Positions 10,660 to 17,068 of a DNA stretch of 30,983 bases are shown here, piece after piece. A program made the position numbers and the translations under genes. Every line of letters starts with the position of its first letter. Positions within the stretch are counted from its first letter, which is position 1. The notes beneath the pieces were generated by a model. It had not been told where the DNA came from. It saw only the letters and a list, made by a program, of their open reading frames with translations, and did no database searches. The DNA is from Lachnospiraceae bacterium (GTDB taxonomy: Bacteria > Bacillota_A > Clostridia > Lachnospirales > Lachnospiraceae). Where the stretch lies: contig JAILDD010000035.1 of assembly GCA_024689605.1 (NCBI GenBank), forward strand, positions 1 to 30,983, in the 5' to 3' direction.

Positions 10660-11106
10660 TCAGATCAGGCCTTTCTTTCTTCCCGAATATTTTTTCTTTA
10701 CGTCCAGTCGGTTCAGGGCACGTCTGAGCTTGGCTTCCGCAATCTGTTCCTCCAGCCTCCCCTGCTTAAGCTTTATTATATCTTTGGCAGCCTGTTCCGA
10801 CTCTTTAGCCCTGTTTTCATCTATTTCGTCCGGATCCTCGGCTGACTCTACCAGCACCAGTACTTCGGTAGATTCAACACGCATGATACCGGCAGAAACC
10901 GCAGCATAGCGCATGCTGTCTTCAGGATCCTCATCTTTCCTGTATTTAAGAAGCCCTTCTTTTATCGCTACCACCGCAGACTCATGCCCCGCCATGACGC
11001 CAAACTCCCCCTCAGCCGTGGGCACCGCAAGAAACTCCACCGCACCGCTGAAGAATACGGAACTTGCCTCATATATTTTAAGCTGAAATGAATTTAAGGT
11101 TTCCAA
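10660..11106 (-). CDS. atpC: F1 ATP synthase epsilon subunit
   Basis: 148 aa, a little over the usual 130-140. The N-terminal beta-sandwich is seen in FLAVPTAEGEFGVMAGHE, followed by the two-helix C-terminal arm. The arm contains IDENRAK, matching the I/L-D-x-x-R-A motif through which some bacterial epsilon subunits bind ATP and switch between inhibitory and non-inhibitory forms. The start codon is TTG and comes directly after the beta stop (TAA-TTG), with GGCGGAG inside the beta end as ribosome site. It is the last gene of the atp operon. No convincing terminator was found in the 220 bases that follow; a weak AAGG/CCTT stem with interrupted T runs is the best candidate. Confidence 0.95.
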   Translation of the reverse strand: METLNSFQLKIYEASSVFFSGAVEFLAVPTAEGEFGVMAGHESAVVAIKEGLLKYRKDEDPEDSMRYAAVSAGIMRVESTEVLVLVESAEDPDEIDENRAKESEQAAKDIIKLKQGRLEEQIAEAKLRRALNRLDVKKKYSGRKKGLI

Positions 11107-13444
<2,338 letters not shown>

Positions 13445-13457
<13 letters not shown>

Positions 13458-15214
13458 TTATCCTCGTAGAATCTCTTTGCGGCTTCGATGATCTGTTCCT
13501 TTTCTTCAGGTGTCATTACGCCGGTCTCATCGATTTTTTCACAGAGTGCAGACTCTGTCATTGAAAAATGCCTGAGCATCTCATCACGGAACTTTATTAT
13601 CTTTGCCAGTGGAACATTTTCCATTACATGGGCAATGGCTGCACAGAGTATGATTACTTGCTCATGCAGCGAGAACGGATGCCCCTGAGGCTGTATCAGT
13701 AACTTCATAAGTCCCTGACCATAGTTAAGCTGCTTCTTAGTAGCTTCATCCAGGTCACTGGAGAACTGCGTGAACACTTCCATCTCCCTGTACTGTGCAA
13801 GATCCAGCCTCAGGCTTCCCACGGCTTTTTTCATCGCCTTTGTCTGGGCCGCTCCACCTACACGGGATACAGAAAGCCCGACATTGACAGCAGGCCGTTG
13901 TCCTGCAAAGAAAAGATCACTTTCTAAGAATATCTGTCCGTCCGTTATTGAAATAATATTGGTAGGTATGTAGGCAGAAACATCTCCCGCCTGAGTTTCG
14001 ACTATAGGCAATGCCGTCATGCTGCCTCCGCCTATTGCATCAGAAAGTCTTGCCGACCTCTCTAACAGCCTTGAATGCAGATAGAAAACATCACCGGGGT
14101 AAGCTTCACGTCCTGGTGACCTCTCCAGCAGAAGGGACAGTGCCCTGTATGCTATGGCATGCTTGGACAGATCGTCATAGATAATAAGCACATCCTTGCC
14201 CTGGTACATGAAGTATTCGCCAAGGGCTGCACCCGCATAAGGCGCAATATACTGGACAGGTGCTGTTTCAGATGCAGATGCAGAAACCACTATGGTATAT
14301 TCCATTGCACCCTGCTTCTTAAGATTACCAACTATATGAGCCACGCTGGACGACTTCTGTCCGATTGCAACATATATGCAGATAACACCATTGCCCTTCT
14401 GGTTCAGTATGGTATCCGTAGCAATAGTGGTCTTTCCTGTCTGTCTGTCACCGATAATAAGCTCTCTCTGTCCCCTTCCTATGGGAAACATTGAGTCGAT
14501 TGAAAGCAGGCCCGTATTCATAGGGGTATCCACACCCTGACGGGACACGATGTCCGGAGCCGGGGATTCTATGGCACGATAACCCACAGCCTTTATCTTG
14601 CCCTCTCCGTCTATAGGCTCACCGAGTGCATTAACTACCCTTCCTATGTATGCGTCACCCACAGGTATTCCTGCGGTCTTTTTGGTACGCCTTACCCTGC
14701 TGCCTTCCGTAACATCCGTATCGTCACCGAAAAGTATGATACCGACACAGTCAGGCCTAAGGTCCTGCACCATGCCCTTTACGCCGGATTCAAAAATTAC
14801 GATCTCGCCATATACCGCACTGCGAAGTCCCTCTGCCAGTACAATACCGTCACCTACTGTCAGTACGACACCTTCCTCCTCTGGACGGACATGGGCCTCC
14901 CAGGAATCGATTGACGATTTGAAAAGTGTAATGACATCAGATTCTTCATCATCATACCTTGCCGCAATCTCATCCAGCATATCGGCTAACTGCCTGTACC
15001 TTCCTTCACGGGTCCAGTCATATACTTCACCGCCTGCCTCCAGCCTGAAACCGTTTCCCACAGTCTCATCCTTTTTCCAGACAAGCTCGAATTCCTCGCC
15101 CTGCTCCTTTAAAAGAAAAGCTTCAAAGCGCTTCTTTTGCTTTGCATCAGGTGAAGCAGCACTGTATATATACGCCTCTTTTTTTGAAGTGGCTGAGGTC
15201 TTACTTTCTTCCAT
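13445..15214 (-). CDS. atpA: F1 ATP synthase alpha subunit with an N-terminal delta-subunit C-terminal domain
   Basis: 589 aa from the ATG at 15214; alpha is normally about 500-510. Residues from about 92 onward are ordinary alpha, with Walker A GDRQTGKT at 255-262 and the SVSRVGG arginine-finger segment. Residues about 14-88 match the C-terminal domain of delta (AtpH/OSCP): an aligned block reads IYSAASPDAKQK..FEAFL, then VGNGFRLEAGGEVYDWTREG, then RQLADML, which parallels E. coli delta ISAAALSEQQ..., MAGVIIRAGDMVIDGSVRG, ERLADVL. The helical N-terminal domain of delta, which in known enzymes grips the alpha N-terminus, is absent. GGAGG eight bases before 15214 fixes this start, 12 codons inside the longer open frame. 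The gene overlaps the b-subunit stop by 14 bases, so no separate atpH fits. Fusion and loss are seen in sequence; stator function is inferred. Confidence 0.93.
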
Positions 15215-15707
15215 CAGAATTTCCTCCGTCAGAATTCTTTTCTGCCTCATCTAAGAATGAATCAAAAGATGATCCGCCCTCGCTGTCAAGCATTATCTTG
15301 CGGGTAGCTTCTTCTATCATCTTGGAGATATCTTCCTTGGCGCCCTCCACAATGCCTTTCTTCTTTCTTTCGCCTTCGGCCTTTGCCTCTGCAATAACGA
15401 CTTCAGCCTTCTTCTTAAGGCTTTCTTCTTCAGTCTTACGCATTTCAGCGATCTCAGCCTGGGCAGCGCTCATCTTGGCTTCCACTTCCTCATCGGCCTT
15501 ATCCATTGCAGCAGTATACTCTGCCTTTAACGCTTTAGCCTCATCCAGCGTCTTCTTCGCCTGCTCGTCCATTTCACGATAATGGTCCTCACGCTTCTGA
15601 ATAAAATCCTTTACAGGCTTGTATAAAAGGATGTAAAGTCCTCCAAAGAGAAGGATTATATTGAAAAGGTGCAGGAATATCTGCATAAAATCTATTCCGA
15701 GTATCAT
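15201..15707 (-). CDS. atpF: F0 ATP synthase b subunit (peripheral stalk)
   Basis: 168 aa. One N-terminal membrane helix (about residues 8-28, FMQIFLHLFNIILLFGGLYILLYKP) followed by a long charged, alanine-rich coiled coil. Single b gene, so a homodimer is expected. The last 25 residues are Ser/Gly/Asp-rich instead of ending in the usual amphipathic helix that binds the delta C-terminal domain, though an IMLDSEGG segment precedes them. The gene overlaps the fused alpha start by 14 bases. AAGGGG lies seven bases before the ATG. Confidence 0.94.
   Translation of the reverse strand: MILGIDFMQIFLHLFNIILLFGGLYILLYKPVKDFIQKREDHYREMDEQAKKTLDEAKALKAEYTAAMDKADEEVEAKMSAAQAEIAEMRKTEEESLKKKAEVVIAEAKAEGERKKKGIVEGAKEDISKMIEEATRKIMLDSEGGSSFDSFLDEAEKNSDGGNSDGRK
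15223..15227 (-). promoter_or_regulatory. Ribosome site that fixes the extended alpha start
   Basis: GGAGG on the minus strand, eight bases before the ATG at 15214. It places translation start upstream of the delta-like domain and rules out that the extra N-terminal codons are an over-extended open frame. No comparable site was noticed near where a standard alpha would begin. Confidence 0.85.
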
Positions 15708-15731: not shown

Positions 15732-16112
15732 TTACAGTACGAAGATCGCCAGTATCGCAATGATCAATGCATAAATAACTACCGTCTCTATAAATACCAG
15801 ACCGAGCATCATGATGGTCTGTATCTTTCCGCTCATCTCAGGCTGTCTTGCAACACCCTCGCCGCAGCGTCCTACTGCGATACCCATACCGATACCTCCG
15901 CCGAATGCCGCAAAACCCACCGCAATACCTGCACCAATGGCTTTTCCTAAAATATCATTCACCCCTACATTTGCTGCCTCTGCAGCTGCTTCAGCAGTAG
16001 CTGTGGTGTCTGCAGCCTGGGCGCTTATTACCCCGGCCACCCCTACTCCTGCCATAACAATGATCATCACTGCAAGTGCGATTGCCATAGTTTTGATTGT
16101 CTTTAATTTCAT
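15732..16112 (-). CDS. atpE: F0 ATP synthase c subunit with a signal-peptide-like N-terminal extension
   Basis: 126 aa; most bacterial c subunits have 70-90. Residues about 52-126 form the normal two-helix hairpin: a glycine-rich helix 1, the loop RQPE (89-92), and helix 2 with the ion-carrying Glu109 in VFIETVVIYA. Residues 1-34 look like a signal peptide: MKLKTIK, a hydrophobic core (MAIALAVMIIVMAGVGVAGV), then AQA-AD, a good signal peptidase I site. A 15-residue Ala/Thr/Glu linker follows. The glutamine that helps bind Na+ in helix 1 of Na+-type rings is a methionine here (GMG), so H+ is the likelier ion. GGAGG eight bases before the ATG. Confidence 0.94.
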   Translation of the reverse strand: MKLKTIKTMAIALAVMIIVMAGVGVAGVISAQAADTTATAEAAAEAANVGVNDILGKAIGAGIAVGFAAFGGGIGMGIAVGRCGEGVARQPEMSGKIQTIMMLGLVFIETVVIYALIIAILAIFVL

Positions 16113-16157: not shown

Positions 16158-17015
16158 TTATGCTGCTTTTGCTTCTTCTATTGTTTCGTCTGTAGTCGCT
16201 TCTTTTTTCTTTTTCTTCTCCCTTATCTCCGTGACCTCACCGTAGTAGAAACTGGTAAGCATTGTCAGGACATATGCCTGAATGACTGCATGCAACACTG
16301 TGAAGAGTACGCCCACCAGTACCGGCAGTACAAAACTAAGTGTCATATAGTAATAAACTAATTCAGTTGTGAGCATACCTGAAAGCAGGGCACCAAATAA
16401 TCTGAATGTCATTGATATAGGCAGTGAAAACTCCTTAAGTGCATTTCCAACGCCGGCAATTTTATTTGCTGTGACTGCACCGAATACGATAAACAGATAT
16501 GAAAAACATCCTGCAGCTATGGCACCGTTTATATTTGCAAGGGGTGCCGGCAGCGCCAGTGAATTGCCTGCGGCGGATACAACCTGCAGACCCAAAAGCT
16601 CAAACATGGTTCCCACAAAAATATAGGAACCTATCGCAAAAATATATGCGCCAAGGGCCTTATTCCTATGGGGGCTGTTGGACTTGGCAAGTCCGTCAAA
16701 AAGCCCTACCCACATCTCTAAAAGCATCTGGAATTTCCCAGGCACGAGTTTGAATTTAGGGATAACGAAGATCCTGATTATCAGTGCAGCCAAAAGAAGA
16801 AATGCTGTCACTATAAATCCGGAAAGGAGCGAAGGATCGATCTGCATAATGCCGAAGAGCGATATCTTATTCGTCTCATGCAGCACCGCATCACGCATTA
16901 CTTCCTTTACGGTTTCATGCTTTTCAGCATGGAAAGTAAGCACCGTTCCCACAATGCTAAATGCCAATAGCACCAGCATTACGACAATGGTTTTTGTCTT
17001 TTTTTTCTTATCCAA
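16158..17015 (-). CDS. atpB: F0 ATP synthase a subunit
   Basis: 285 aa from a TTG codon at 17015. Five to six membrane helices; the essential arginine is Arg205 in MTFRLFGALLSGM, and the last helices read YYMTLSFVLPVLVGVLF and HAVIQAYVLTML. The C-terminus carries a lysine-rich then acidic tail (EKKKKKEATTDETIEE). The frame is open to another TTG at 17063, but that codon overlaps the -10 box and has no ribosome site, while GGAGGGG sits seven bases before 17015. First gene of the operon; no atpI precedes it. Confidence 0.94.
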   Translation of the reverse strand: MDKKKKTKTIVVMLVLLAFSIVGTVLTFHAEKHETVKEVMRDAVLHETNKISLFGIMQIDPSLLSGFIVTAFLLLAALIIRIFVIPKFKLVPGKFQMLLEMWVGLFDGLAKSNSPHRNKALGAYIFAIGSYIFVGTMFELLGLQVVSAAGNSLALPAPLANINGAIAAGCFSYLFIVFGAVTANKIAGVGNALKEFSLPISMTFRLFGALLSGMLTTELVYYYMTLSFVLPVLVGVLFTVLHAVIQAYVLTMLTSFYYGEVTEIREKKKKKEATTDETIEEAKAA

Positions 17016-17022
17016 TTTGGAA

Positions 17023-17029
17023 CCCCTCC
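17023..17029 (-). promoter_or_regulatory. Ribosome site that fixes the atpB TTG start
   Basis: GGAGGGG on the minus strand, seven bases before the TTG at 17015. It lies inside codons 12-14 of the longer frame, which argues that those codons are not translated. Confidence 0.8.
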
Positions 17030-17062
17030 GATACAGACAGAATATAATTTTTGCTACATTCA

Positions 17063-17068
17063 ATTATA
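17063..17068 (-). promoter_or_regulatory. -10 box of the atp operon
   Basis: Perfect TATAAT on the minus strand, about 48 bases before the atpB start. The -35 region falls in a T-run (GTTTTT) and is poor, so the promoter may rely on an activator or on the A/T tract. It is back to back with the azlC promoter. Confidence 0.6.

Follow-up and report, generated by a model that had tools for sequence, protein, structure and literature searches.

The locus raises the question of how many peripheral stalks an F-type ATP synthase carries when the C-terminal domain (CTD) of subunit delta is built into the alpha subunit and the delta N-terminal domain (NTD) is missing. The window, that is, the whole stretch of DNA analysed (30,983 nucleotides of contig JAILDD010000035.1 from a Lachnospiraceae bacterium), holds such a gene in an operon of the order a-c-b-[deltaCTD-alpha]-gamma-beta-epsilon, whose seven products all have family matches and identify an F-type ATP synthase (F1Fo; Table 1). 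The plan of one stalk and one a subunit is treated as a fixed rule for F-type ATP synthases, and with a natural enzyme that has lost the part shown to enforce this rule, it can be tested directly whether multi-stalk enzymes occur in nature.

The fused alpha gene and its operon

The earlier note had proposed, from the sequence of the window, that alpha starts with the C-terminal domain of delta, and had set a profile search of the alpha N-terminus as a check; this search returned the delta-family profile PF00213 at 23.4 bits, above its cut-off of 22.3, and the proposal is further borne out by the predicted fold of the N-terminal domain, which matches delta chains in solved ATP synthases, and by purifying selection on the domain in relatives. 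The PF00213 match begins at profile position 96 of 172, indicating that the delta NTD is missing, and the fusion of the delta CTD to alpha with loss of the NTD can be regarded as virtually certain. The gene order and the overlap of the b and alpha genes were also as first described, and neither the open reading frames nor the profile search gave a separate atpH within the window operon.

Two other explanations of the extension were rejected. An NTD overlooked in frame upstream does not fit an open frame that extends just 12 codons above the ATG, and a drifting or decaying extension does not fit the selection on the delta CTD, with dN/dS values of 0.04-0.31, far under 1, for the 13 of 16 pairs of relatives that could be computed (the other three were saturated); the value for the alpha core was lower than that for the delta CTD in 12 of these 13 pairs. 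In the alpha N-terminal helix, L97 never varies and W105 hardly does across an alignment of 32 sequences (without L035 and L067), and because of this conservation the helix probably retains a partner, although the delta NTD that it normally helps to dock is gone. The model of the full-length fused alpha is of middling confidence (pLDDT 69).

Table 1. Features of the window operon and of related loci (window positions, or locus handle with positions in that locus)
Feature	Location	Strand	Basis
atpA-like, delta CTD + F1 alpha, 589 aa	13445..15214	-	TIGR00962 731.5 bits, PF00213 23.4 bits
Shine-Dalgarno GGAGG, ATG 8 nt downstream	15223..15227	-	sequence; L001 and L002 also examined
Delta/OSCP C-terminal domain, residues ~11-83, predicted fold b-a-b-b-b-a	14966..15184	-	
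Alpha N-terminal helix, residues 93-105	14900..14938	-	
F1 alpha core, ordinary: beta-barrel, nucleotide-binding (GDRQTGKT) and C-terminal domains	13448..14878	-	
atpF, subunit b, 168 aa, 14-nt overlap with alpha	15201..15707	-	
atpE, subunit c, 126 aa, signal-peptide-like N-terminal extension, Met at the Na+ Gln position (reads as H+-type)	15732..16112	-	
atpB, subunit a, additional N-terminal hydrophobic segment; start uncertain, probably TTG near 17015	16158..17063	-	
atpG, subunit gamma	12513..13457	-	
atpD, subunit beta	11107..12516	-	
atpC, subunit epsilon, both domains present	10660..11106	-	
b-delta(CTD)-alpha fusions in relatives	L112:2865-5207, L113:2110-4320, L114:2706-4928, L126:13-2235, L129:1-2268		
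Free delta CTD between b and alpha, 74-78 codons	L107:3502-3723, L108:2814-3044, L109:3693-3914, L110:3780-4013		
Free delta CTD between b and alpha, open frame 93 codons	L085:2539-2817		
Nearly whole delta (NTD + CTD) fused to alpha	L076:4835-6895, L081:2855-4846		

The b subunit of the window has a C-terminal FDSFL segment where the delta-CTD-binding helix normally lies, and in fused operons this segment resembles that of ordinary b proteins (34 b proteins viewed); the fused delta CTD very probably binds b. Regarding the ion, and presuming that the Gln position of the Na+ site in c follows the ligand set of Ilyobacter-type rings, from which it was assigned, this position holds Met in all 74 readable rows from fused operons, and the residue two past the c carboxylate is Ala or Val in 75/75; in canonical operons the corresponding residues are Gln (14/18) or Glu (4/18), and Thr (18/18). 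The fused enzyme therefore reads as H+-type, since Met replaces Gln in c, and the canonical neighbour would be mostly Na+-type.

Other features of the membrane subunits were recorded. Subunit c, with its N-terminal extension, shows three hydrophobic segments in 71 of the 73 proteins from fused operons and two in 18/18 canonical ones; a DAVLH...LFG stretch and an extra N-terminal hydrophobic segment occur in the five fused a proteins inspected, and the median length of subunit a from the first Met is 276.5 aa in fused operons (n=72) vs 243 aa in canonical ones (n=17). The a subunit of L081 is without the extra segment. The locus with nearly whole delta, L076, was left out of the fused group in the counts of c residues, of b, c and a segments, and of internal starts.

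Distribution, origin and companion ATPases

Relatives were sought by scanning one genome per species, which gave at least 585 coding places, the best 80 of which were kept; these come from Lachnospiraceae, Eubacterium ruminantium, Flintibacter, Anaeromassilibacillus, Acutalibacter, Faecalibacterium, Oscillibacter and other Clostridia. A delta-alpha fusion is present in all 80 kept loci, with the CTD alone in 79 and nearly whole delta in one (L076), and a separate delta open frame was recognised at none of them. All seven operon genes were found in 65 of the 80 (one with a cut a gene); among the 15 loci with missing genes, 14 end at contig ends there, the exception being L035, where a and c were not recognised in 1.6 kb upstream. 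Even samples of two orders point in the same direction, and their counts are lower bounds, as two known CTD-alpha genes score near or beyond the E value of 0.001 used: the order of E. ruminantium gave a match of CTD-alpha type in 8 of 96 genomes and a nearly whole delta-alpha in 1, and the order of Flintibacter gave, in 79 genomes, 12 CTD-alpha fusions, 3 b-delta-alpha triple fusions and 4 free CTDs (15 of the 20 CTD-only matches, L048 and L107-L120, were opened). With the N-terminus of L032 as query, 361 proteins were found, 120 of them listed, and many public proteins named 'F0F1 ATP synthase subunit alpha' already bear a PF00213 match. The fused alpha is a clade-wide architecture, not an oddity.

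In canonical operons atpH lies directly 5' of atpA, so that the fusion requires merely the loss of the delta stop and the spacer. In the alpha tree, the main fused group adjoins a set in which delta is separate (L086/L087), fused nearly whole to alpha (L076 and L081) or fused as CTD (L123/L124), and both groups lie far from the canonical Lachnospiraceae alphas. The CTD-alpha fusion of L116 lies outside the main clade, among the operons with a free CTD (L107-L110). A single origin of all CTD-alpha fusions was rejected by the AU test (p 4e-59), as was a single clade uniting every alpha that has any of these fusions (p 1.5e-5), and a single origin without L116 was not rejected (p 0.08); this test presumes groups named before the tree is seen, and the groups here were named by architecture. 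Because one origin is rejected, the alpha sequences indicate that the CTD-alpha fusion arose at least twice. The larger alpha tree held the window, 23 of the 79 CTD-fused loci, L115-L124 and five of the 120 listed triple-fusion proteins, and the quick alpha tree was built without L084 (fragments).

The nearly whole delta fused to alpha in L076 and L081, which group at just 38% support in the quick tree, is a candidate intermediate state, itself with three deltas per F1. As a separate observation, genome G065 has three delta-like matches in three atp loci (L082, L083 and L084), in frames of 145-241 codons with C-terminal profile coverage only; L084 appears broken.

A further architecture, in which a b-like membrane anchor and stalk segment is followed by the delta CTD and then by alpha, was found in 5 of 117 genomes of the order of G174, three of them already known from the order-of-Flintibacter sample and one matched at just 38% identity. 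As translated, these proteins measure 740 aa (L112) and 736 aa (L114); the b profile PF00430, with a cut-off of 28, scores 32.5 bits in L112 and, slightly below it, 26.2 in L114, and PF00213 scores 41.5 and 37 bits, respectively. A separate b' gene lies upstream in all five loci. Residues 1-260 of the triple fusion, used as query against a set of 5.8 billion, matched 974 proteins at E <= 1e-3; 120 of these were listed, mostly of ~736 aa and with query coverage of 97-100%, and those named among them are Clostridia, Oscillospiraceae, Ruminococcaceae and Roseburia metagenome genomes. Neither a second F1 alpha nor an A/V-type subunit was found in the three triple-fusion genomes examined.

The earlier note had also stated that there is no separate atpH, which holds for the operon but not for every genome of the relatives: a survey with PF00213 and PF00306, covering the source genomes of 20 of the 80 loci, found a complete atpH in a second, canonical operon in 12. 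These include the two closest to the window, G001 (93% DNA identity over 4.9 kb) and G002 (about 82-85%), as well as NK4A179, E. ruminantium and F. gallinarum. A complete atpH elsewhere in the genome had been named beforehand as a finding that would count against the fusion; it does not touch it, because that delta sits in another operon with its own alpha. In the other 8 genomes, among them LC2019, An867, Flintibacter muris DSM 110149, Neglectibacter X58 and Acutalibacter 1XD8-33, no F1 alpha other than the fused one was found.

These data also bear on the idea that the fused domain has lost b binding and acquired another role (assembly, dimerisation or regulation), the delta of the second operon serving both enzymes. 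The 12 genomes with such a delta would allow it; nevertheless, the 8 genomes without a separate delta or second F1 alpha found, the position of the canonical deltas in operons of a distant alpha clade in the alpha trees, and the retained fold, selection and C-terminal b segment make it highly improbable.

With 18 more CTD-alpha genomes, 8 of which (G118, G132, G143, G191, G192, G082, G048 and G103) were classed as such by profile span and open-frame length only, the survey covered 38. A canonical F1 is also present in 17 of them, none with the A/V-type subunit PF01992; PF01992 was found in 16 of the 21 without canonical F1, one of these matches being weak (36 bits). Thus 33 of the 38 show a second rotary ATPase (raw counts, uncorrected for kinship), and these profiles found none in G011, G133, G154, G192 and G073. 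The A/V-type subunit and the canonical F-ATPase never occurred together beside the fused enzyme in the 38 genomes (kinship uncorrected). RnfC is present in 10 of the 14 genomes examined for it. Where two ATPases share a genome, the fused one might be a minor enzyme or one used conditionally.

Three delta copies and the number of stalks

The native enzyme may be viewed in the light of an engineered one. In the accessible text of Ueno et al. 2025 (PMC12229609), a Bacillus PS3 delta-dN-alpha was designed from the argument that a delta NTD sitting on the three-fold axis restricts the enzyme to one stalk; it can bind as many as three b2 and three a, its H+/ATP is 5.8 vs 3.0, and the pmf needed for ATP synthesis is about halved, although its hydrolysis-driven pumping is lower than that of the wild type. 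Since the CTD on alpha and the missing NTD are common to both, the same prediction extends to the window enzyme. Each alpha would bear, in its delta CTD, a socket for a b2 stalk, and the loss of the NTD from the three-fold axis would lift the one-stalk limit; if each CTD binds b2 as usual, F1 would hold up to three b2-a stalks. As protons per turn would equal the number of c multiplied by the number of a, such a low-gear enzyme could synthesize ATP at a weak pmf and, in reverse, pump more protons per ATP, usually beside a second rotary ATPase of either A/V type or canonical F type, the latter mostly Na+-type. A multi-stalk H+-type F1Fo, in which each alpha has its own delta CTD and more than one b2-a stalk is attached, is the reading favored here on balance, and a native fused enzyme with more than one stalk is held to be slightly more probable than not.

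The main competing explanation is that the fusion is merely a tether, one CTD binding b2, the other two being idle or protecting the crown, and one a driving the ring. According to PMC12229609, every ATP synthase so far known has just one a subunit, and a tether by itself accounts for the loss of the NTD; the suggestion of the earlier note that a covalent tether replaces the NTD is plausible and works in the engineered enzyme. In addition, cryo-EM of the engineered particles showed 0, 1, 2 and 3 stalks in 15, 51, 26 and 8%, so that 66% have none or one and one stalk may dominate, although the authors blame stalk loss on the grid. Further points counted against several stalks are that the clade of the window is without the b fusion, so that three stalks are allowed, not forced, and that no role is known, within the model, for the additional N-terminal segments of a and c. 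Against the single stalk, nothing is known to bar b2-a from the two other identical sites; gel stoichiometry and H+/ATP of the engineered enzyme each point to about two stalks on average (PMC12229609), and all three of its sites can take b2, an outcome left out of the earlier note's choice between two idle copies and copies that bind something else, so that the three need not be idle. Moreover, a single b anchor per F1 would be impossible in the b-delta-alpha relatives without processing of alpha: as every alpha bears one, the triple fusion would give three b anchors per F1, and it hints, as a stronger natural pointer, at multi-stalk enzymes. The single-stalk explanation is held to be possible but less probable.

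A mixed hexamer, in which an internal start or proteolysis yields a short alpha and leaves one delta CTD per F1, is very unlikely. An internal Shine-Dalgarno sequence and start do occur in some loci; nevertheless, their frequency (29 of 80, the window plus 79 loci) is close to the 31.3 expected from synonymous shuffles, and there is none in the window; internal initiation was rejected. In the Flintibacter-like loci L048 and L059, AGGAGG lies five bases 5' of an in-frame start in the linker before alpha, and a short alpha is possible locally.

The broader proposal, put forward tentatively, is that multi-stalk ATP synthases are in natural use among gut Clostridia. The window enzyme would attach as many as three b2 and three a to a single rotor, its proton-to-ATP ratio would clearly exceed the natural values known, and it would be the H+ counterpart to another rotary ATPase, often of Na+ type, while related lineages would have made several stalks obligatory through the b-deltaCTD-alpha fusion. 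This bears on how fermenters make and spend ATP at weak proton gradients, and cultured gut and rumen carriers exist in Eubacterium ruminantium, Flintibacter muris, Anaeromassilibacillus and Faecalibacterium gallinarum.

Comparison with known systems

The CTD-alpha architecture has already been published, briefly and in a single paper as far as its accessible text goes (PMC12229609), which names natural delta-dN-alpha proteins in Acidaminococcus fermentans and under UniProt G4Q3K6 and A0A1I2C5T3 and predicts natural multi-stalk enzymes; the mycobacterial b-delta fusion is thus not the only similar case, as had been supposed. How widespread the fusion is in gut Clostridia, its Na+/H+ pairing, its intermediates and the triple fusion did not come up in the portion of the literature within the search, most subscription papers lying outside it, and a word search of PMC10656485 turned up no mention of a fusion or of the delta subunit/OSCP.

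The b-delta fusion of Mycobacterium and Gordonia resembles the window gene in that delta is covalently joined to an operon neighbour, according to the accessible part of PMC5709465; there, however, b is joined to delta, whereas in the window the delta CTD is joined to alpha, hence three per F1, and b is a separate protein, so that the operon is not of the mycobacterial type. The N-ATPases share the absence of a delta gene and the occurrence beside a main ATP synthase (PMC4154653 and PMC5706428, in the parts available), but have a long b, another gene order and an atpA family of their own, whereas the window has a b of normal length and the ordinary order minus delta. This assignment was rejected on the length of b (168 aa) and on scores below the cut-offs of the alternate-F1F0 families, with TIGR03321 for b at 37.5 vs a cut-off of 224.7 and TIGR03324 for alpha at 579.5 vs 750.5.

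The fusion of A. fermentans is likewise a natural delta-alpha without the delta NTD, in the available text, and differs in belonging to the class Negativicutes, the relatives of the window being Clostridia, Lachnospiraceae and Oscillospiraceae. The engineered PS3 chain (PDB 9jc1) aligns with residues 27-581 of the window alpha (E 3.4e-178) and has the same domain order, with delta residues 105-178 at the alpha N-terminus and the NTD deleted; it is man-made and has lost the epsilon C-terminal domain, whereas the window enzyme is natural, with a complete epsilon and N-terminally extended a and c. With the CTD on alpha, the NTD missing and an operon without atpH, the window holds a natural delta-dN-alpha in the sense of Ueno et al. 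2025.
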